DNA of 64,000 nucleotides from Haladaptatus paucihalophilus DX253 (GTDB taxonomy: Archaea; Halobacteriota; Halobacteria; Halobacteriales; Haladaptataceae): the NCBI RefSeq assembly GCF_000376445.1, contig NZ_AQXI01000004.1:124001-188000 (forward strand). The letters run 5' to 3'. The position numbers were made by a program, and so were the translations under genes. Below, one piece after another: positions 6,222-30,856 of this stretch; the first letter of the stretch is position 1; each line of letters starts with the position of its first letter. Under the pieces are notes generated by a model that ran no database searches, was not told where the DNA came from, and saw only the letters and a list, made by a program, of their open reading frames with translations.

Positions 6222-6419
6222 GATTATAACGTTGTAATAGAGGGGGATCGCGTAAGCGACCCCCTCCATTTCGCAGAAATAGACGCAGAAATAGACGCAC
6301 TCCACCGTAACCAACCTACAACTACCACCATGTGTCACCGGCAACGCGGTGTGAATCTCTTGTGGTGGTGCCGCCCGAGCGGGGGTTCTGCGAACCCCCG
6401 TGATTACAACGCTATAATC
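6222..6419. repeat. Hairpin module A, flanked by 18-bp palindromes
   Basis: The two ends carry related palindromes: GATTATAACGTTGTAATA (6222-6239) and GATTACAACGCTATAATC (6402-6419), which match at 16 of 18 positions when one is inverted. Between them are a G5/C5 hairpin (6240-6266, GAGGGGG pairing with CCCCCTC), a perfect tandem repeat of CGCAGAAATAGA (6272-6295), and a hairpin of CGGGGGTTC and GAACCCCCG with a three-base loop (6380-6400). The stop codon of the minus-strand gene at 6418 lies inside the right palindrome. Module B at 14.2-14.45 kb has the same plan. A bidirectional terminator or a small mobile unit are both possible. Confidence 0.6.
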
Positions 6420-6891
6420 AGCGCCCTCCGTTTCCTCCTTCGTTCGCTTCGTGTGCTCGCATCCACCCGGCGAGGTCGGGGTGGGCGAACGTGATTTCGA
6501 TGTGATGGCCACCGACACCCATTGCATCGTCCACACACAGCGTCCGTGACTCTTTGTAGGTCACGCCGGGCACACGCTCGGCCATCTCCTCCATCACCCG
6601 ATAGCCGTCGTTCTTATACGCACAGCCATAGTGAGTCGCGACCTCTCGATAGCCCAGTCGAGCAACCATCACATCATTTGTCTTGGCGACGTTCTTCGCG
6701 TGCTCGAGGACGTTGAGGTACTTGTCTTCGACATGCTGACTCTCAGCGCGCTTTTCACGGAAGTTCACGAGTTCCGTGTTCTGTTCCGAACGCTGCACAG
6801 TCTCGAAGAGCTGGCGACCTGCATTAGTTGCTTCCGCAGCGAGGTTCGGCGAGTCGTCGTCAACACCCTCTTCAGTTTCGTAACCCCGCAC
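6418..6891 (-). CDS. Hypothetical protein, parent of the fragment beside CRISPR array 2
   Basis: I do not recognise this 157-residue protein. It is charged, with a helical N-terminal half (GRQLFETVQRSEQNTELVNF) and a conserved-looking centre (VARLGYREVATHYGC). The start at 6891 is GTG and uncertain. Just upstream an open segment without a start codon (about 6893-7050, ending IIQPRAGLRN) could be a broken 5' part of the same or a neighbouring gene. About 85 residues from its middle recur at 29385-29650, next to CRISPR array 2, so the family has moved or been duplicated. Its stop codon is inside the palindrome ending module A. Confidence 0.6.
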   Translation of the reverse strand: MRGYETEEGVDDDSPNLAAEATNAGRQLFETVQRSEQNTELVNFREKRAESQHVEDKYLNVLEHAKNVAKTNDVMVARLGYREVATHYGCAYKNDGYRVMEEMAERVPGVTYKESRTLCVDDAMGVGGHHIEITFAHPDLAGWMRAHEANEGGNGGR

Positions 6892-7076
6892 GAGGTTGAA
6901 TTATACGCGAGACCGACGCTCGCACCCGACTGTTCTTCTCTTCAGCGTCGATGAGGTTGTCGATGTCTGCTACCGAACTAAGAGGTTTGCTTGATTCGCT
7001 GCTAGATTTCAATAGGGGCAATTGCCGTTCGATATCAAAGTGAGAAGAAGAGAAGTGGGATGAATTCGCTATCTTG

Positions 7077-14130: not shown

Positions 14131-14247
14131 CTGGTGGCAGCACCGAACGATGTTGACAAGAAAAACGTCGACACGATCATGGCCGAGATTGTCGTCCTTG
14201 AAGATCCGATTCTCGATCGCGATAGTGAACTGATTACACTGTCGTAA
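14131..14247 (+). pseudogene. Short gene remnant ending in module B
   Basis: An open segment encodes LVAAPNDVDKKNVDTIMAEI and then VVLEDPILDRDSELITLS before a TAA stop at 14245-14247. It has no start codon in frame. Its end (ELITLS, stop) resembles the end of the minus-strand gene at 14434 (EEITVS, stop), and in both the stop codon lies in a GATTAC-type palindrome. Probably the 3' end of a lost gene. Confidence 0.35.
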
Positions 14248-14449
14248 TCTGCTTGAGCCGCCCAGTGTAATCAGCTAAACTGCTTCTTTCCTTCTCTTCA
14301 GGCCGCGAAGAGAAGAAGGAGCAATTACACCCCACAGTAGCCAACCGTTCATTCCACCATCAGAGGGGGTGCAAGTTGCACCCCCTCCTCATCTCTTGGG
14401 GATCGTCGATTACGGTCGGTGGCTCGATGGTGATTACGACACCGTAATC
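14232..14449. repeat. Hairpin module B, flanked by 18-bp palindromes
   Basis: Ends: GATTACACTGTCGTAATC (14232-14249) and GATTACGACACCGTAATC (14432-14449), which match at 16 of 18 positions when one is inverted. Inside are CTGATTACACTG (14230-14241) inverted as CAGTGTAATCAG (14263-14274), an imperfect CTTCTCTTC/GAAGAGAAG hairpin (about 14291-14315), and a near-perfect hairpin of GAGGGGGTGCAA and TTGCACCCCCTC with one central base (14363-14387). The plan is the same as module A. The stop codon of the minus-strand gene at 14434 is within the right palindrome, so at least part of the module may act as a transcription terminator for that operon. Confidence 0.6.
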
Positions 14450-15333
14450 TCCTCCGTGATGCTCTCGTCTTCGTCGGACGTAATCGGTGCTGCCGACGAG
14501 AGGACATCAAACTCTTCGTCAGCGTTTTCTCTCACCGTGTCTGTGTCTGCCTGATCGTCAGTACCGTCGTTGCTTCTCTGGTTGTTGGTATCCGCGTCTT
14601 CGTCCACAGTGCTGACGTGCTCCGTCTGTTCTGCAAAAAACGACTCCCATTCGTCTTCGTCAGCCACGAGGATATTTTTCTCGTTGCGGTGTTTCAGCGT
14701 GACAAGATTGTTGTCGTCCTCGGGGTCAGACGTCTCGTTCTGGCTCGTTCCTCGTGCCACGAACTCCATGACACGGCGCACCGTGTTTGGGTTGGTGTCG
14801 AGACCGTGTTCGTCGAGGATCTGTTTAACGAGCCATGACGGGAGTCGCATCTTCCCGTGGCCTCGTCGTGCACGCTCGTGGAAGGCCGCCCAGACGAAGG
14901 TTGCACGTTCTTTGTTCTTCGAGAGCTCGTGATTTCCGGTCTTCCGAGCGGCTGTATCCCGTTGAATCTGCAGCTGGTTTCCTGTGCCATCGAGATCGAG
15001 CACGTCGCTCACGTCGACCTCACCGCGTTCGAGATCGTCGATGCGTTGGTCTTGATCGTCCAATCGTTCACCGTGTCGTGCAACGGCTTTGCCGAGTGGA
15101 TAGGGACCAACCCAAAGATTTGCTGCTTTCTTCGCTTCTCCACGCCACTCGACAGAGGCTTGGTTTGTGACCTGCTCCTCAAGTTCGTTGATTCGCTCGT
15201 CTTTCTCGGCGACTTCCTGCTCGAGATCCTGAATGCGGTCGGTGAGTGTCTGAACGTGCTTAGCGAGGTCGCTGATCGAGACATCGTTGTCATCGAGAAC
15301 ACTGGACGCTCCGAACGTGGTGGGGTTACTCAT
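14434..15333 (-). CDS. Coiled-coil protein of an accessory-element operon
   Basis: A 299-residue acidic protein, last gene of a six-gene operon. About residues 20-65 form a coiled coil (LTDRIQDLEQEVAEKDERIN), followed by a conserved-looking centre (about 70-200) with RHGERLDDQDQRIDDLE and a helix-turn-helix-like stretch (LPSWLVKQILDEHGLDTNPN). The tail is poorly ordered and rich in Asp, Glu, Thr and Ser. ATG 15333 overlaps the preceding gene by 8 bases; the longer frame to 15399 would run further into that gene. The function is not recognised; the coiled coil plus possible DNA-binding helix would suit a plasmid maintenance or structural role, but that is speculation. Confidence 0.7.
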   Translation of the reverse strand: MSNPTTFGASSVLDDNDVSISDLAKHVQTLTDRIQDLEQEVAEKDERINELEEQVTNQASVEWRGEAKKAANLWVGPYPLGKAVARHGERLDDQDQRIDDLERGEVDVSDVLDLDGTGNQLQIQRDTAARKTGNHELSKNKERATFVWAAFHERARRGHGKMRLPSWLVKQILDEHGLDTNPNTVRRVMEFVARGTSQNETSDPEDDNNLVTLKHRNEKNILVADEDEWESFFAEQTEHVSTVDEDADTNNQRSNDGTDDQADTDTVRENADEEFDVLSSAAPITSDEDESITEEITVS

Positions 15334-15718
15334 TGGCAGGCACCTCCACTGTGACCGTAGTGTCCTCTGCTGGCGTTGAGAGACGCGGCAGGTGAGCAAT
15401 GGTAGTGAGCATGCCGATACAACGGGTAGTCGTGTCTGTGGCGGTGTGGGTGAACTCGAGAACAGTCATGGCAGAATCGGGCTGACTGGTGCAGTGGAAG
15501 GTGGGATACTGTAGTTCGTCCTGTGCCGTCGTGGTGATCGGTGGTGCCGTCAGAACGAGATACGGTCCACAGCGTGTCGGTGGGTTCGTCGCTTTGACCG
15601 TACAGATCGTCCGTGGCAACTCTGTCGTGGTGATGCGAACGCGGTCACTCGGTGAGAGGTGTGCAACGAGCGAGTTAGCATCGCGAGGATTCAACGGCGT
15701 CGGCGCATACCCACTCAC
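15326..15718 (-). CDS. Hypothetical protein in the accessory operon
   Basis: A 130-residue protein rich in Thr, Pro and Leu, with repeated beta-strand-like stretches (RVRITTTELPRTICTVKATN, YLVLTAPPITTT, TTVTVEVPANE). No signal peptide, metal site or known fold is recognised. Its ATG overlaps the stop of the upstream gene (15715) by four bases and its own 3' end overlaps the coiled-coil gene by eight, so translation is coupled along the operon. The neighbour at 15715-16047 has a similar beta-rich character. Confidence 0.65.
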   Translation of the reverse strand: MSGYAPTPLNPRDANSLVAHLSPSDRVRITTTELPRTICTVKATNPPTRCGPYLVLTAPPITTTAQDELQYPTFHCTSQPDSAMTVLEFTHTATDTTTRCIGMLTTIAHLPRLSTPAEDTTVTVEVPANE

Positions 15719-16047
15719 GCCTGCTCACCTCCATTTGGATTGACAATGCACTCGACCGTCGCATAGGTACGCAACCACGCATACGAGCCGGAGGGGGTGC
15801 GTCCGTAATGATCGAGGTCGGCCTCGGTGTACTCGTACTCGTCGTAGTAGTGGTACTGCAGCCGATACAGATCGTTCGACGGCGTGGCGACGTACAGGAC
15901 GTGCTCACCTGGCTCGGGACCACGACAGGAGAGTGTGGGTTCTGAATGCTCACACTGATAGACGATGCCGGTGAGCGTGCGCTTCTGGGTGTGGATTTGG
16001 ACTGGATCCGTGCACTCCAGCGCGAGAATTGTCTGCTGGTCGGTCAT
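15715..16047 (-). CDS. Hypothetical beta-rich protein in the accessory operon
   Basis: A 110-residue protein beginning MTDQQTILALECTDPVQIHT, with strands such as HVLYVATPSNDLYRLQYHYY and YATVECIVNPNGG. The start at 16047 overlaps the upstream stop in an ATGA arrangement; the longer open frame to 16131 reads back into that gene and is not used. Two or three cysteines are present but no paired zinc motif. Unknown function. Confidence 0.65.
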   Translation of the reverse strand: MTDQQTILALECTDPVQIHTQKRTLTGIVYQCEHSEPTLSCRGPEPGEHVLYVATPSNDLYRLQYHYYDEYEYTEADLDHYGRTPSGSYAWLRTYATVECIVNPNGGEQA

Positions 16048-16424
16048 TGCTCGGCCTCCCGTTTTTGGCGAAGGCGCTGACAGAGCTGGCAGGGTGCGTA
16101 CTGATCGTCTTGTGCCTCTGTGCGCGTGCAATAGGCGAGTGGGTTGTCGGTCTGCAGCGTACAGAGTGAGTGGTTGTCCGCATCGAGTTCGTGATACGCG
16201 AAGGCGTCGCCTACAAATTGATCGACGATAGCGACCGTCTCATCGGCAGGATACGGGTCGGCAGTGATGCGCTGGTCGCGTTCGGCATCGGTGAGGTTGC
16301 TTGTGAACTGGGTGTTACAGTAATGGGAGTCAGTGATCTTCACCGCGTAGGTGCCACAGTCCGGACAGCGTTCGAATGTGCTCTCGATCTCCTCGGGGGT
16401 GATCGAAGTGGACGTGCGGGTCAC
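16044..16424 (-). CDS. Zinc-ribbon-like hypothetical protein in the accessory operon
   Basis: A 126-residue protein with two candidate metal sites: CPDCGTYAVKITDSHYC near residues 20-36 and CTRTEAQDDQYAPCQLC near 98-115. The paired cysteines suggest one or two zinc ribbons, hence nucleic-acid or protein binding. The start at 16424 lies 56 bases after the upstream gene's stop, and its stop overlaps the next ATG by four bases. Confidence 0.65.
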   Translation of the reverse strand: MTRTSTSITPEEIESTFERCPDCGTYAVKITDSHYCNTQFTSNLTDAERDQRITADPYPADETVAIVDQFVGDAFAYHELDADNHSLCTLQTDNPLAYCTRTEAQDDQYAPCQLCQRLRQKREAEQ

Positions 16425-16480: not shown

Positions 16481-16972
16481 CTACGCAGGCACCTCAGTTG
16501 TGGTGTGGGTGGTGGCGTCAATGCCGTAGCACCGTTCGAGGATGTGCTGGTAGTGTCTGCGAGTTTCTGTGTGGGCTTCGCCCGGTGGTGTCGAGGGGAG
16601 CTTGGGATTGCCCGTTTTGGTGGTGGCGACCGAGCGATAGGTGTCGGTGTCCTCGGGGATTTGGAAGCCCTCCTCGTCGTAGTCGATCGGGCAGCGGCGT
16701 TCGAAGAATCGCTGGCAGTCCGGCGTGGCGTAGATGCAGTACAGGGAGGGTTCTTTGTTGGTGGTCTTGGTTCGGGTTTCAAAGCCCACGCGGAGTTCGA
16801 CGAGGTACGCACGGGTGATTGGCTCGTCGGTAGTGGGCGTGGGTTGGTCTGGATCCTGGGCGGCGGTGTCGGGTGTGGGTTCGAGGCGTTTGACGGGGTG
16901 GAAGACTTTTTCGCCGAATTGGGCCTCGAGGGAGAGGAGCCCGCCGTTGGGTTTCTCGTCGAAGGACGCCAT
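16481..16972 (-). CDS. Hypothetical protein in the accessory operon
   Basis: A 163-residue protein starting MASFDEKPNGGLLSLEAQFG. A proline- and threonine-rich linker (about 33-50) precedes a globular part (AYLVELRVGFETRTKTTNKE, then YCIYATPDCQRFF). No family is recognised. The start codon shares its A with the TAA stop of a 23-residue frame upstream (TAATG), a strong sign of coupled translation. Confidence 0.65.
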   Translation of the reverse strand: MASFDEKPNGGLLSLEAQFGEKVFHPVKRLEPTPDTAAQDPDQPTPTTDEPITRAYLVELRVGFETRTKTTNKEPSLYCIYATPDCQRFFERRCPIDYDEEGFQIPEDTDTYRSVATTKTGNPKLPSTPPGEAHTETRRHYQHILERCYGIDATTHTTTEVPA

Positions 16973-17043
16973 TAGTCGAGTCCTCCGAAAATGGGTGGTT
17001 GGTAGTCGATGCGTTTTTCTACGGAAAGGGTATTGCTAGTCAT
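16972..17043 (-). CDS. 23-residue peptide, possible first gene of the accessory operon
   Basis: The frame reads MTSNTLSVEKRIDYQPPIF then GGLD and a TAA that overlaps the next ATG as TAATG. The tight coupling and ordinary codons argue for translation, either as a real micropeptide or as a leader that opens the downstream start. Too short for any family assignment. About 180 bases of AT-rich DNA, the probable operon promoter, separate it from the divergent gene at 17224. Confidence 0.45.
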   Translation of the reverse strand: MTSNTLSVEKRIDYQPPIFGGLD

Positions 17044-17223
17044 GCTTCTGTGACCTCAGAAGCGCGGTCGGGTGTGCCACCACCCGGCCAGAGTTTCTGA
17101 CCATCCACGCTTCTATACTCTGTTTGTAGCGCCATCTTAATAAGCGTTACTTAGTAACGGACTACAGAAATACGTTGGAAATTACTAAGTAATTCTGCAC
17201 GAAAGGACTAATGAGGTGACGGA

Positions 17224-17454
17224 ATGAGTACTATAGTAACTGTGGTTAATGAAGAGTTTAGCCCCTCCGAGAATCAGGAGGTTGTTCTGCAAGTCTTCAA
17301 AGACGAACAGCGGGTTAACCCACTTCGAATAAGAGATGTTACAGGTCTAGAAAAACAGCGCGTTAACGATGCACTTGGAAGTCTGGTCGATGCAGGCTGG
17401 ATTCGACGTGTGAATCGAGGTCTTTACGAATTTGTAGAAGACCCTCGGGAATAG
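17224..17454 (+). CDS. Small winged-helix protein
   Basis: A 76-residue winged helix: PLRIRDVTGLEKQRVNDALG is the helix-turn-helix, and SLVDAGWIRRVNRGLYEFVE gives the last helix and wing. It is a paralogue of the 84-residue protein at 41534-41788, sharing the ending AGWIRRxxRGLYEFVxDPRE. It stands between the divergent accessory operon and CRISPR array 1. A regulatory role, perhaps on the operon at 16972, is inferred from position only. Confidence 0.7.
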   Translation: MSTIVTVVNEEFSPSENQEVVLQVFKDEQRVNPLRIRDVTGLEKQRVNDALGSLVDAGWIRRVNRGLYEFVEDPRE

Positions 17455-17503: not shown

Positions 17504-19037
17504 GTAAGTGACCTATTTCTGTTCGTCTGTAACGTCGCCGCGAGAAGCTGTTCGACCTGGGAGACGTCGCTTCAACCCTACTACGGTTCGTCTGTAACAT
17601 TTCTGCCTTCGACCGACTCAACCCCTACGAGGCGGCTTCAACCCTACTACGGTTCGTCTGTAACGGAGAGTACGCCGATAGCGTCGACGCGATACACGAG
17701 GCTTCAACCCTACTACGGTTCGTCTGTAACTTTCCTGTTCGAGATCCTTAGGCCACTCCACAAGTCGCTTCAACCCTACTACGGTTCGTCTGTAACCATG
17801 ATGCCGCGAAAACAGCCTTCTCGGGAAGAGCTTCAACCCTACTACGGTTCGTCTGTAACAACAGCATCTCGAAAACGTCGGCCATGTCATCGAAGGCTTC
17901 AACCCTACTACGGTTCGTCTGTAACGACGTTGATTTCCTCGGCGGTCTCCTCGTCGTAGACGCTTCAACCCTACTACGGTTCGTCTGTAACGCGATCAAG
18001 CCACGATACAGGCGATTCAGACCAGCTTCAACCCTACTACGGTTCGTCTGTAACCGGAGTATCTGTTAGACGACGGCGTGCTACGAATCCAGCTTCAACC
18101 CTACTACGGTTCGTCTGTAACAATCGGCAATCAAGAAGAATCTCGTCACCGACGAAATTGCTTCAACCCTACTACGGTTCGTCTGTAACTGGAGAGACAC
18201 ACGGGGAATCAAGTGGACTCCGAGCTTCAACCCTACTACGGTTCGTCTGTAACTATCGTATTCTCAGCGACAATGTTACTCATCCTGCTTCAACCCTACT
18301 ACGGTTCGTCTGTAACGCACTCGTCCACGCGGTATGGACGTCCTCGACGAGGCTTCAACCCTACTACGGTTCGTCTGTAACCGGATGCGAGCGTAGAGGA
18401 TCGGTTCCTATGAGCGGCTTCAACCCTACTACGGTTCGTCTGTAACCCGCATCCCCGCTGCGATGACGCGGCGAATTCGCTGCTTCAACCCTACTACGGT
18501 TCGTCTGTAACATGCGACGGATGCATGGGATGCGGCATTTGAGTTGCTTCAACCCTACTACGGTTCGTCTGTAACCTGTGCGATAAATGCTGGTGTGCAC
18601 GCGCGGGTTCGCTTCAACCCTACTACGGTTCGTCTGTAACCATCGTGTTCACCGAGGTCTTTGAGCATCTCCGGGTGCTTCAACCCTACTACGGTTCGTC
18701 TGTAACACCAACTTCAACAACCGCCGTTTGTCCATCGTCAACAAGCTTCAACCCTACTACGGTTCGTCTGTAACAGGACGCGTCCACGTTCCCCGAGTGG
18801 ACGCCCGAGGCTTCAACCCTACTACGGTTCGTCTGTAACCCATCGCGAGGCTACGGAAACAACTGGAAAAAGAGGCTTCAACCCTACTACGGTTCGTCTG
18901 TAACTATTCGTCAGTCATTGATCGGGTCCTCGTATTCGTGGCTTCAACCCTACTACGGTTCGTCTGTAACGATTAGAGAGAAGATAAAACTCGCCTTGAG
19001 TCTGGGAGCTTCAACCCTACTACGGTTCGTCTGTAAC
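17504..19037 (-). CRISPR. CRISPR array 1, 23 intact repeats, type I-B
   Basis: Twenty-three identical 30-base repeats run from 17569 to 19037, with spacers of 33-38 bases. On the minus (transcribed) strand the repeat begins GTTACAGACGAACCGTAG and ends TAGGGTTGAAGC. A decayed end repeat at about 17504-17533 keeps only its final 13 bases on the plus strand (GTTCGTCTGTAAC), marking the old, leader-distal end, so there are 23 spacers. In the repeat, AACC (11-14) can pair with GGTT (22-25) around a seven-base loop, the weak stem usual for haloarchaeal I-B repeats. The leader is at the high-coordinate end, directly downstream of cas2. Confidence 0.99.
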
Positions 19038-19140
19038 CATGCCCAATTTCGGACACTCACCGGCTCTTCTCACTGTTCACACTTGGTCGTTTCCGTCGAC
19101 CGCCAATACCCCATGAACCCCCGGGGGGTCGACGGGCGAC
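19038..19140 (-). promoter_or_regulatory. Leader of CRISPR array 1
   Basis: About 95 bases between the first repeat and the cas2 stop are nearly the same as the leader of array 2 when read on the minus strand. The shared core includes AAGTGTGAACAGTGAGAAGA and GCCGGTGAGTGTCC next to the repeat. No separate TATA box is obvious in so short a gap, so array 1 may be read through from the cas operon or from a promoter within cas2. Confidence 0.85.
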
Positions 19141-19404
19141 TTAAAGAAACCGTGCGTCGTCGGTGGGGTCCTCACCGACAACCATTCGATCAACGTACTT
19201 CTCCGAGCTCATTCGGTAGATGATCGCTGACTCGTCGGACTTGAGTGTTTCACGTGTCTTGTTCTGAATCGTCTCGAGGTCGCCTTCTGTTACTTCTCCC
19301 TCGAAAACGGAGTTTTGGACGTGCGTGAGGTACTTCCGGAGGAAGTTTAGCATGAGACGTGTCCGATCTGCCTGCATATCGTAGACAACAACGATGTAAA
19401 CCAT
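19141..19404 (-). CDS. cas2: Cas2, spacer integration subunit
   Basis: An 87-residue Cas2 with the ferredoxin-like start MVYIVVVYDMQADRTRLMLN and Asp9 at the conserved first-strand position. Cas2 dimers bridge two Cas1 dimers and set spacer length during acquisition. The gene follows cas1 by one base on the same strand and is the last of the operon, directly before the leader of array 1. Length is typical. Confidence 0.97.
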   Translation of the reverse strand: MVYIVVVYDMQADRTRLMLNFLRKYLTHVQNSVFEGEVTEGDLETIQNKTRETLKSDESAIIYRMSSEKYVDRMVVGEDPTDDARFL

Positions 19405-28500: not shown

Positions 28501-28665
28501 CTGATCAAAAGATGGGCCAGTCGCAACAGCTCCTACCGTTGGCTTCCTACCAGGGGCTTCAACCCGTGTGATTCTACTGGATGATCTGAAATCTTGATAA
28601 GGTGATTCCTACTAATTCGGCATTCTACAAGGTACCAAATAAGAATATATTTCTTTAAGACAACC

Positions 28666-28761
28666 ATCGACCTCCTAGGGGAAGAGGGGTTATTGGGGGT
28701 CGACGGAAACAACCAAGTGTGAACAGTGAGAAGAGCCGGTGAGTGTCCAGAATTGGGCATG
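28666..28761 (+). promoter_or_regulatory. Leader of CRISPR array 2
   Basis: About 95 bases before the first repeat are nearly identical to the array 1 leader, including GGTCGACGGAAAC, AAGTGTGAACAGTGAGAAGA and GCCGGTGAGTGTCC. Upstream, ATAAGAATATATTTCTT (about 28639-28655) is a plausible TATA region, so array 2 has its own promoter. It is divergent from the cas operon. Confidence 0.88.
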
Positions 28762-29384
28762 GTTACAGACGAACCGTCCTAGGGTTGAAGCTTCGCCCGG
28801 TTCGTTCTCGCACCCCGGCAGTCGGCAGGTTACAGACGAACCGTCCTAGGGTTGAAGCTGGAACCGCCCTTGTGGCACAGCAGCAAGCCGATGAGTTACA
28901 GACGAACCGTCCTAGGGTTGAAGCGATGGGTATCTTCACATCGACTACAACGCAACCGAGTTACAGACGAACCGTCCTAGGGTTGAAGCCTGTTTTTCGA
29001 GGCGGACAGAGGTTATCTCTGCCAGTTACAGACGAACCGTCCTAGGGTTGAAGCTGTCATTATTCGGTCCTCCATGTGCTCGTGAATCGCGTTACAGACG
29101 AACCGTCCTAGGGTTGAAGCCTATTTGGTAATGAGTTAGGGACGAATAGAGGACTTGTTACAGACGAACCGTCCTAGGGTTGAAGCCTGCCGTGTGTCGG
29201 CCACTGCCTGCAAAACGCCCGTTACAGACGAACCGTCCTAGGGTTGAAGCACCGACCACTCGTTACGTCCCTCCCATCTCGCCCAGCGTTACAGACGAAC
29301 CGTCCTAGGGTTGAAGCGAATTCATCGCACTGGTGGCGTTTGGAATTTACGCCAGTTACAGACGAACCGTCCTAGGGTTGAAGC
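28762..29384 (+). CRISPR. CRISPR array 2, 10 repeats, type I-B
   Basis: Ten identical 30-base repeats with nine spacers of 34-37 bases. The repeat begins GTTACAGACGAACCGTCC and ends TAGGGTTGAAGC. It differs from array 1 only at positions 17-18 (CC instead of AG), inside the predicted loop. The leader is at the low-coordinate end. The distal end has no degenerate repeat: the last perfect repeat ends at 29384 and the next base begins a fragment of an unrelated gene, as if the old end were deleted. Confidence 0.99.
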
Positions 29385-29650
29385 ATCGCGTGATGGAACG
29401 CTCGGCCATCTCTTCCATCACTCGATAGCCATCGTTCTTGTACGCACAACCGTAGTGGGTCGCGAGCTCTCGATATCCGAGTCGTGCAACCATCACGTCA
29501 TTCGTCTTGGCGACGTTCTTCGCGTGTTTGAGCACATCGAGGTACTTGTTCTCGACTTGCTGACTCTCAGCGCGCTTCTCGCGGAAGTTGACGAGCTCAG
29601 TGTTCTGTTCCGAGCGCTGGACTGTCTCAAAGAGCTGACGGCCTGCATTC
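29385..29650 (-). pseudogene. Internal fragment of a gene related to 6418-6891
   Basis: About 85 residues (NAGRQLFETVQRSEQNTELV to YRVMEEMAERS) match the middle of the protein at 6418-6891, with around 80 per cent identity by eye at the DNA level. Both the N- and C-terminal parts are missing. The C-terminal break is exactly at the last repeat of CRISPR array 2 and the N-terminal break is at the PIN-domain relic. Not functional. Confidence 0.85.
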
Positions 29651-29670: not shown

Positions 29671-29931
29671 TCACTGGCTATTCAAGACGGCTCTCGCACG
29701 TTGGACATAGGTGTTCTTCGACCAACTTCGTGCCGTACTCATCTCATCGAGTAATGACTCCGCGTCAGCTGGTGATACAATCTCGTTTCGCACAAGCGCA
29801 ACGAGCAGCATCGGCGTGGTCACAAGCCGAGTATCAACGAGTGACGCATGGATGAGGGCAAGCCGATTGAACTCGTCACACAGAAATTGCGTCGCGTTGA
29901 GTTCGTTCGTGAGTGTCACGGCGGCGTTCTC
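29671..29931 (-). pseudogene. C-terminal part of a PIN-domain (VapC-like) protein
   Basis: The frame encodes SENAAVTLTNELNATQFLCD, EFNRLALIHASLVDTRLVTT and ends ARSWSKNTYVQRARAVLNSQ. This is the second half of a haloarchaeal PIN-domain protein of the DUF3368-like kind. The first half with the leading catalytic Asp is missing: upstream residues in the frame are antisense to the Mrr-like gene's coding strand end. A relic of a toxin gene. Confidence 0.65.
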
Positions 29932-30856
29932 GCTCCTGTTGGGGAAAATCGTCAGGGAAACGATAGTCTTTAAATACTGTTTGAGTTCGTCTCTTATACC
30001 GAATTTTTGTGATACTGGTCTCCGAAGGTGCCTCGATATATGTAGCAAAGCGTGCTTTGCTTTGAGCAGATATTACAGGAATATTCACCTGCCAATTTCC
30101 GGGGAAGTATCTATCTTTAGCAAACTTCTTCTTGGGATTGTAAGTAAACCCGTCATCACCATAGATGGAGAGATCACTCCAAGGATGAATCGATAAGTCA
30201 TATTTTGATAAATTAGTCAGCTCCATTGCAAGGAAGTACCCTTTAAATTCTTTTGGTCTCCGTATCTTTGCTTGGGAAGTCTTGATATACTCATAACCGA
30301 GAAGTTTTGCCCGGAACAGATCACATTCGTCAACAATATTGAGGCTGCTTGAAGGTTTGTGGTCTGTAGGAACAGTAGGAGTATTTTCTTCTATCTGGAT
30401 GGTCTCCTCTCTCCGATCGTCTACGTAGGACTCAACTAATTCTTCGGCAGACATTTCAACAACGAGTTCAGAAAGCGTATCTCCATTAACTAATTTGATA
30501 TTGAATTCTTGGGCAAGTGAACGGGCTTGGTTTGTAAATCTGCTAGTAGTAATTACTATGACTTCATCCACACTATCCCTTTGCTTAAGAGATGCATATT
30601 TTTGTAACTCAGGTCCTGAAACCGAACTATCGGTACCATATCGTTTTGTCTGAATTAGTGTTTTCTTGGGATATGGAAATGACTTCGTTGCGATAATATC
30701 GATTCCTTTGTCTCCAGATTGGGATGTTACTTCAGTTTCCCAACCACGAAAAGACCAAAGGTCGGAGACGAATTCTTCAAATTCGTATCCATTTAGTTGC
30801 TGAAGAAGAGGTAGAATCTGATCAGTAGTGATGTTTGATTCTTTGCCGGTCTTCAT
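29876..30856 (-). CDS. Mrr-like restriction endonuclease
   Basis: A 326-residue protein with an N-terminal Mrr catalytic domain (about residues 15-135): FEEFVSDLWSFRGWETEVTS, then GDKGIDIIATK and LIQTKRYG, giving the D-(Q/E)xK pattern of the PD-(D/E)xK fold. The rest (about 165-300) looks like a beta-rich domain with FLAMELTNLSKYDLSIHPWS. Mrr-type enzymes cut modified or foreign DNA. The last 20-odd residues (from about PQQERERRR) run into the PIN relic in another frame, so the native C terminus may have been lost. Its low-GC coding is unlike the CRISPR locus and suggests transfer. Confidence 0.8.
   Translation of the reverse strand: MKTGKESNITTDQILPLLQQLNGYEFEEFVSDLWSFRGWETEVTSQSGDKGIDIIATKSFPYPKKTLIQTKRYGTDSSVSGPELQKYASLKQRDSVDEVIVITTSRFTNQARSLAQEFNIKLVNGDTLSELVVEMSAEELVESYVDDRREETIQIEENTPTVPTDHKPSSSLNIVDECDLFRAKLLGYEYIKTSQAKIRRPKEFKGYFLAMELTNLSKYDLSIHPWSDLSIYGDDGFTYNPKKKFAKDRYFPGNWQVNIPVISAQSKARFATYIEAPSETSITKIRYKRRTQTVFKDYRFPDDFPQQERERRRDTHERTQRDAISV

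Follow-up and report, generated by a model that had tools for sequence, protein, structure and literature searches.

What is the unit that brings gene ends and palindromes together in this stretch of Haladaptatus paucihalophilus DX253 DNA? The window, i.e., the whole 64,000-nucleotide stretch that was analysed, is part of the 316,765-bp contig G000:C4, whose closest matches are Haladaptatus plasmids. The pattern GATTAYNNNNNNRTAATC, with at most one mismatch, occurs four times in the 64 kb, and the four sites form two pairs with a spacing of about 180 and 200 bp, respectively (Table 1). In 100 dinucleotide shuffles, the mean number of matches was 0.27 and the largest was two, with none reaching four, so that the palindromes of the original prediction are real.

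Each palindrome pair represents the limits of a ~200-bp module at the 3' end of a gene family, named g5. The internal hairpins of these modules are GC-rich. The extent first ascribed to the module was too small, as it runs from 14232 to 14449 in type B, with a matching pair at 6222-6419 in type A. Stop codons were correctly placed at the palindromes: the one at 14434 and that of the remnant frame (14245-14247) lie inside, and the TGA at 6418-6420 overlaps the edge with two of its three bases. The remnant at 14131-14247, taken for a third gene ending at the site, is actually a decayed globin fragment adjoining module B. Its homologue is a truncated haemoglobin, over residues 95-119 (tblastn, 64% identity, E 3e-6), and the intact haemoglobin copy in H. 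salinisoli has its own stop codon before the palindrome. The similar last residues noticed at two ends (EITVS and LITLS) have a trivial origin, as ITVS and ITLS are the palindrome itself, translated outward from both sides.

On Haladaptatus plasmids, g5 closes an operon of five small genes. One such operon, with a g5 of type B, is complete in the window, which also contains a type A g5 end that is truncated at its 5' side and has its module. Full-length g5 copies start with MSNTTxSGASS...SDLAKHVQSLTDRVDDLEQEVAEKD, and the window gene 14434-15333 does likewise; the gene at 6418-6891 has no such front and is a 5'-truncated end. By their codon-position differences, g1 to g5 are conserved as proteins. 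Against Pfam and NCBIfam, none of the operon genes scored above a curated cut-off; nor was the operon seen to contain a ParA, Rep or Orc gene, and PADLOC returned weak coiled-coil-like matches alone (g3 of the window left out). In PHROGs, g5 of type A matches phrog_33117, of unknown function (E 3.7e-59); despite this match, g2 and g5 found no counterpart in phage records and viral contigs.

The g2 marker is present in 24 of 293 genomes of the order, distributed over six of 87 genera. Up to eight markers were found on one Halorussus contig, two of which may be one place at contig ends. A search for operon starts yielded 24 places in nine Haladaptatus genomes. These 24 starts had suggested one operon per replicon, acting as an incompatibility determinant, a candidate that was rejected as weakened by the eight markers on the Halorussus contig. 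The DNA of the leader hairpin and the 23-residue frame (16972-17113) is nearly identical across the compared operon starts, and the operator regions upstream differ. In two Halorussus operons (L274:3071-6262; L276, reverse strand), g5 is replaced by the gene of a ~1,063-residue protein with two CxxC motifs at its start, and an alternative last gene of ~390 residues occupies the g5 position in L187 and L266, which are Haladaptatus and Halorussus operons.

Table 1. Positions of the palindromes, modules, operon genes and displaced fragments in the window.
Feature	Position	Strand	Remarks
Matches to GATTAYNNNNNNRTAATC	6222-6239, 6402-6419, 14232-14249, 14432-14449		1 mismatch in 6222-6239
Terminal palindrome (site 2), type A module	6222-6239	.	
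Type A 3' module	6222-6419	-	
5'-truncated g5 type A end	6418-6967	-	displaced copy downstream of operon; open frame 6418-6891
Decayed 3' end of truncated-haemoglobin gene	14146-14220	+	the earlier 'remnant'; adjoins module B
Terminal palindrome (site 2), type B module, GATTACACTGTCGTAATC	14232-14249	.	similarity of B copies begins here, flanks differ
Type B 3' module	14232-14449	-	~200 bp, internal hairpins
Gene-end palindrome (site 1)	14432-14449	.	g5 stop codon inside
g5	14434-15333	-	N-terminal coiled coil constant (MSNPTTFGASS...SDLAKHVQTLTDR); C-terminal domain of type B
g4	15326-15718	-	no family match
g3	15715-16047	-	no family match; listed ORF 15715-16131 starts further upstream
g2	16044-16424	-	Cys/His-rich (zinc-finger-like) protein; best operon marker
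g1	16481-16972	-	no family match
23-residue leader peptide frame (MTSNTLSVEKRIDYQPPIFGGLD)	16972-17043	-	stop overlaps g1 start
Leader hairpin GAAGCGTGG...CCGCGCTTC	17059-17113	-	found in aligned operon starts
Two inverted repeats TTACTTAGTAA / TTACTAAGTAA	17147-17192	.	operator-like, between operon and regulator; different sequences in other operons
Divergent small helix-turn-helix regulator	17224-17454	+	resembles HTH/MarR genes annotated next to other operons
Third g5 type A fragment	29399-29649	-	starts at recurrent boundary R2372; without module
End of PIN-like toxin gene	29674-29946	-	fused 24 bp upstream of fragment 29399-29649; 93% identical to L190 copy

Over 1,924 bp, the window operon (type B) shares 82.6% identity with the operon of L065 (type A); the two become unrelated from within g5. 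Behind the same operon, C-terminal types A, B, B2, C, D and others are found. The g5 protein has the constant N-terminus and the exchangeable C-terminus that characterize Rhs/CDI-type polymorphic systems, and in a profile comparison of types A and C the N-termini alone align (residues 1-105 with 1-101). Read by eye, the modules behind types A, B, B2 and C each have their own palindrome: GATTATAACGTTGTAATC-like in A, GATTACACTGTCGTAATC-like in B, GTTACACTGTCGTAAC-like in B2 and CCGACCAC...GTGGTCGG in C. In Halorussus, the same operon has a different coiled coil, carrying type C and another type. This type C is 54-55% identical to the Haladaptatus copies, its stop codon lies again within the type-specific palindrome, and L262 shows a compensatory change.

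These sequence comparisons support an exchange of g5 3' ends together with the module. The idea of cassette exchange at 3' ends is retained in this form, and not as the capture of three unrelated genes at a single constant site. At 6418 and 14434, the genes assigned to different families represent alternative forms of a single gene, g5, and the site does not stay constant below differing upstream genes, because the palindrome sequence changes with the g5 C-terminal type. Nor are the genes homologues with a conserved coding end, which would have argued against an exchange: their homology lies at the front and not at the end.

The type A module has 90 matches in all nine Haladaptatus genomes, of which 73 include the terminal palindrome and 17 lack the 3' end, as counted by eye; further fragments without the 3' end appeared in another search. 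The type B module gave 31 matches in seven of the nine genomes, several of them short. When 30 type A copies are aligned, the similarity ends sharply at the outer palindrome and runs on into the gene at the other side. The outer limit at the terminal palindrome recurs with many different flanks (57 rows), and 27 of 53 type C ends fall at query 298-300; about 20 copies are alike up to ~140 bp past the palindrome, so this limit is not absolute. Flank searches for the window copy and three others revealed no clean, uninterrupted empty site. In type A modules, the hairpin GGGGGTTCnnnGAACCCCC and the hairpin adjoining the terminal palindrome have constant stems and loops that vary between copies. 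RNA covariation was not visible, as the type A copies are too alike.

The majority of copies consist of a 5'-truncated end that has retained its module; these are here called orphans. Their 5' limits mostly differ and are spread over ~650 bp of g5 coding sequence. Within 100 kb of the 5' ends of the 24 operons, and excluding the operons' own modules, 61 of 69 orphans lie downstream in the same orientation, four downstream in the opposite one, four upstream in the same orientation and none upstream in the opposite one, counts that are not independent because the nine genomes that contributed copies belong to a single genus and the copies share descent (e.g., the type C - PIN gene - type A unit at R2372), so that p-values overstate. 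The majority pattern occurs in 15 of the 18 operons with orphans. The four opposite orphans are all located on G007:C30, and the four upstream ones include the window fragment 29399-29649. Type C, fetched after the pattern had already been seen in A and B, contributes 21 orphans (also within the 69), of which 18 lie downstream in the same orientation, two downstream in the opposite one and one upstream in the same orientation. Every type C piece with a type A neighbour within 10 kb is oriented like the nearest of these (31 of 31), and adjacent pieces more than 5 kb apart share their orientation in 88 of 104. The downstream orphans were also compared with the module of the operon itself: where this is of type A, downstream orphans are present in none of four operons, and where it is of type C, a type A orphan comes first in five of five.

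The orphans differ from the reference at 177, 145 and 1121 sites of the first, second and third codon position (1121 of 1443 at the third), and among 40 orphans the frame is broken by frameshifts in nine and by a stop in three more. The third-position bias makes the orphans look like former functional gene ends, and they may be said to derive from many once-functional g5 alleles. Together with the few broken frames, it favours the displacement of former ends over the spread of a non-coding repeat.

The orientation of the copies was also compared with the composition of the replicons. In the flanks of 59 type A copies, gene-sense AT skew is positive in 42 of 59 (the copies not being independent), and GC skew gave a null result (p 0.54). 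On G003:C5 (599,015 bp), nearly all module pieces switch orientation at 321-375 kb, near the cumulative GC-skew minimum at ~340 kb. An insertion coupled to the replication strand was not retained: G003:C5 fits it and, judged by eye, so do G003:C2 and G004:C5, but the sign is opposite on G004:C8. By eye, Orc1/Cdc6 positions did not coincide with the switch points. The constancy of the 3' ends and the variability of the 5' ones had suggested LINE-like copying with 5' truncation, which was set aside because the 3' module was the search bait, some fragments have no 3' end and the orphans are coding-like.

Unrelated small genes occupy 40 gaps of less than 3 kb (21 clusters; some loci overlap) between a module and the next truncated end. 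Over the Pfam cut-off, this cargo comprises PIN domains, a Fic/Doc protein, nucleotidyltransferases (one with a HepT-like partner) and a bacterial globin. Two more genes, PIN-like and accompanied by small partners, gave weaker matches, below the cut-off (PIN_9, E 0.0012; PIN_4/DUF3368, E ~0.02); for several of the toxin labels the family matches are weak or lacking, and we assigned the HTH/PIN-like pair by our own reading. Judged from their sequences, other gaps appear to hold enzymes or transporters. Two dissimilar PIN-like cargos (L185 and L190) stop at one point of type A g5, R2372, and the window segment 29399-29946 is a remnant of such a PIN/type A join. The window gap from module B to the displaced type A end measures 7.3 kb and contains the globin remnant, two TrmB-type regulators, a levansucrase, a GH97 glycosidase and a CARDB protein. 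Elsewhere in the window, a gene cluster is flanked by two CRISPR arrays in facing orientation (17512-19044 and 28756-29390), whose repeats differ slightly. The outer parts of the arrays (19007-19149 and 28650-28792) constitute an 87% inverted repeat, and the second array abuts the g5 type A fragment.

The AlphaFold models of the type C and type A C-termini (weak, with a mean pLDDT of 56-57) both display a strand-helix-helix-strand-strand order after a long helix. With the type C model, Foldseek returned no PDB match at E 0.001; its weak matches include several winged-helix proteins, among them the replication terminator protein. No toxin family matched g5 types A and B over the cut-off. From the two weak models and these weak matches, g5 is taken to be a putative DNA-binding protein, with the palindromes as its presumed targets. 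The g5 C-terminal domains are thus predicted to be winged-helix DNA-binding domains, each of which would bind the adjacent palindrome.

Taken together, the modules are probably the 3' ends of exchangeable g5 alleles. Each would be a DNA-specificity end, composed of the winged-helix domain and its presumed cognate site, that is displaced like an orphan Rhs end. The operon, located on haloarchaeal plasmids, would be controlled by a repressor, and its g5 joins a constant coiled coil to one of several unrelated C-termini. The type-specific palindrome, in two copies ~200 bp apart directly behind g5, one of which holds the stop codon, would be bound by the domain, so that domain and site would constitute one specificity cassette. 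Incoming DNA carrying another C-terminal end, its module and cargo would recombine into g5 downstream of the conserved front. The older end would be cut at its 5' side and, keeping its orientation, module and cargo, would be moved downstream; over repeated rounds, orphan ends would build up into one-way arrays interspersed with small genes. The conserved front would provide homology at one side, presumably for homologous recombination; at the other side, the varying cut points in the old end suggest that joining is loose. Of this scheme, the exchange, the linkage of domain and module, the common orientation, the position downstream, the variable 5' cuts and the mostly constant 3' limit are seen in the sequences, and the DNA binding, the order of events and the recombination route are proposed. 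The purpose is perhaps replicon or element specificity; one specificity per replicon is a misfit with the up to eight operon markers on one Halorussus contig.

In bacteria, orphan rhs ends are displaced fragments downstream of the main gene, as described in PMC3967940. As in the g5 system, a constant N-terminal part is combined there with an exchangeable C-terminal one, and displaced ends without start signals lie downstream (PMC3967940). The g5 system differs from Rhs and CDI in that the host is an archaeon, the exchanged domains resemble winged-helix domains rather than toxins, a palindrome-bounded DNA module is exchanged with the domain, and no immunity gene follows.

The arrays are also reminiscent of integrons. 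The module would then be a recombination site, and a recombinase would insert circles consisting of a gene, a truncated g5 end and a module at the terminal palindrome behind the operon, older cassettes moving outward. The single orientation, the position downstream of the operon, the sharp limit at the terminal palindrome with its many flanks and the small, unrelated and partly toxin-like cargo would agree with such insertions. The same cargo with a truncated A end is even preceded by a B2 module in L101 and by a C module in L090. However, in this one mixed pair the common cargo starts ~100 bp beyond the terminal palindrome and not at it, the 5' limits of the orphans mostly differ from one another, and the third-position bias indicates former gene ends rather than pure sites. 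Moreover, the TIGR02249 integrase is absent (none of nine genomes at E 1e-10). An integron-like mechanism is therefore rather unlikely. The same doubt applies to an archaeal integron-like platform unrelated to integrons, in which g5 would supply a matched domain and recombination site, capture cassettes (many of them toxin-antitoxin pairs) one-way and change specificity by joint exchange of domain and site. Archaeal integrons have been reported from 75 MAGs of nine phyla (PMC9668308); the terms "Halobacter" and "haloarchae" are absent from the main text of that paper. Integrons share with the g5 arrays the one-way order of small, toxin-antitoxin-like cargo with structured sites beside a platform (PMC9668308), but no IntI-type integrase was found for these arrays, their sites are ~200 bp long with two palindromes and attached coding sequence, and their 5' limits vary.

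Homologous recombination between the operons of two circular plasmids could also leave direct operon repeats, one of which decays. Such single crossovers would account for the direct orientation and for the same 3' flank occurring with different 5' flanks and the reverse; indeed, the flank behind the intact operon L071 is common to the orphan L104 over 800 bp. Plasmid fusion nevertheless predicts relics at either side of the operon, against 61 orphans downstream and four upstream in the same orientation within 100 kb, and the small cargo between the modules is left unexplained, which makes this origin improbable.

A transposase-free mobile repeat, moved by an IS200/IS605 transposase, is very improbable. 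The PATEs of Haloquadratum, which are too short for a transposase gene and related to IS605 ends (PMC3119063), are likewise haloarchaeal multi-copy elements with two mutually similar near-terminal palindromes (PMC3119063), and the many module copies with different flanks are compatible with this type of element. The g5 modules do have palindromes near both ends but are not short non-coding units with defined ends: their copies reach into protein-coding sequence with a strong third-position bias, and they belong to a protein-coding operon on which their position and direction depend. At E 1e-5, the Y1 transposase is absent from the genome of the window itself and from four of the nine genomes overall. 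The flank searches also yielded no precise empty site beside a fixed short target. Finally, an ordinary transcription terminator, or a conserved coding end common to homologous genes, to which stop codons within hairpins and GC-rich internal hairpins would correspond, is hardly credible, as the hairpin sequence changes with the protein domain and the paired module of ~200 bp accompanies displaced gene ends in arrays.

Plasmid partition and replication specificity modules consist of a protein and an adjacent site. The exchangeable g5 ends resemble them by a presumed DNA-binding protein beside a presumed site, mostly on extrachromosomal replicons, and differ from them in that several g5 operons are possible per replicon and in the lack of a recognised ParA, Rep or Orc. 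Candidate roles for the operon are maintenance, partition, replication control or recombination. In the open-access literature, no title or abstract describing this system was found.

Exchangeable g5 ends would extend the orphan-end principle of bacterial competition toxins to an archaeal DNA-specificity system, and would explain the ordered build-up of cargo in arrays on large haloarchaeal plasmids. The five small operon proteins, which have no match in curated families, would become candidates for recombination, partition or replication machinery. Each array would be a readable record of past exchanges, so that the order and the route of gene gain by these plasmids would be testable.
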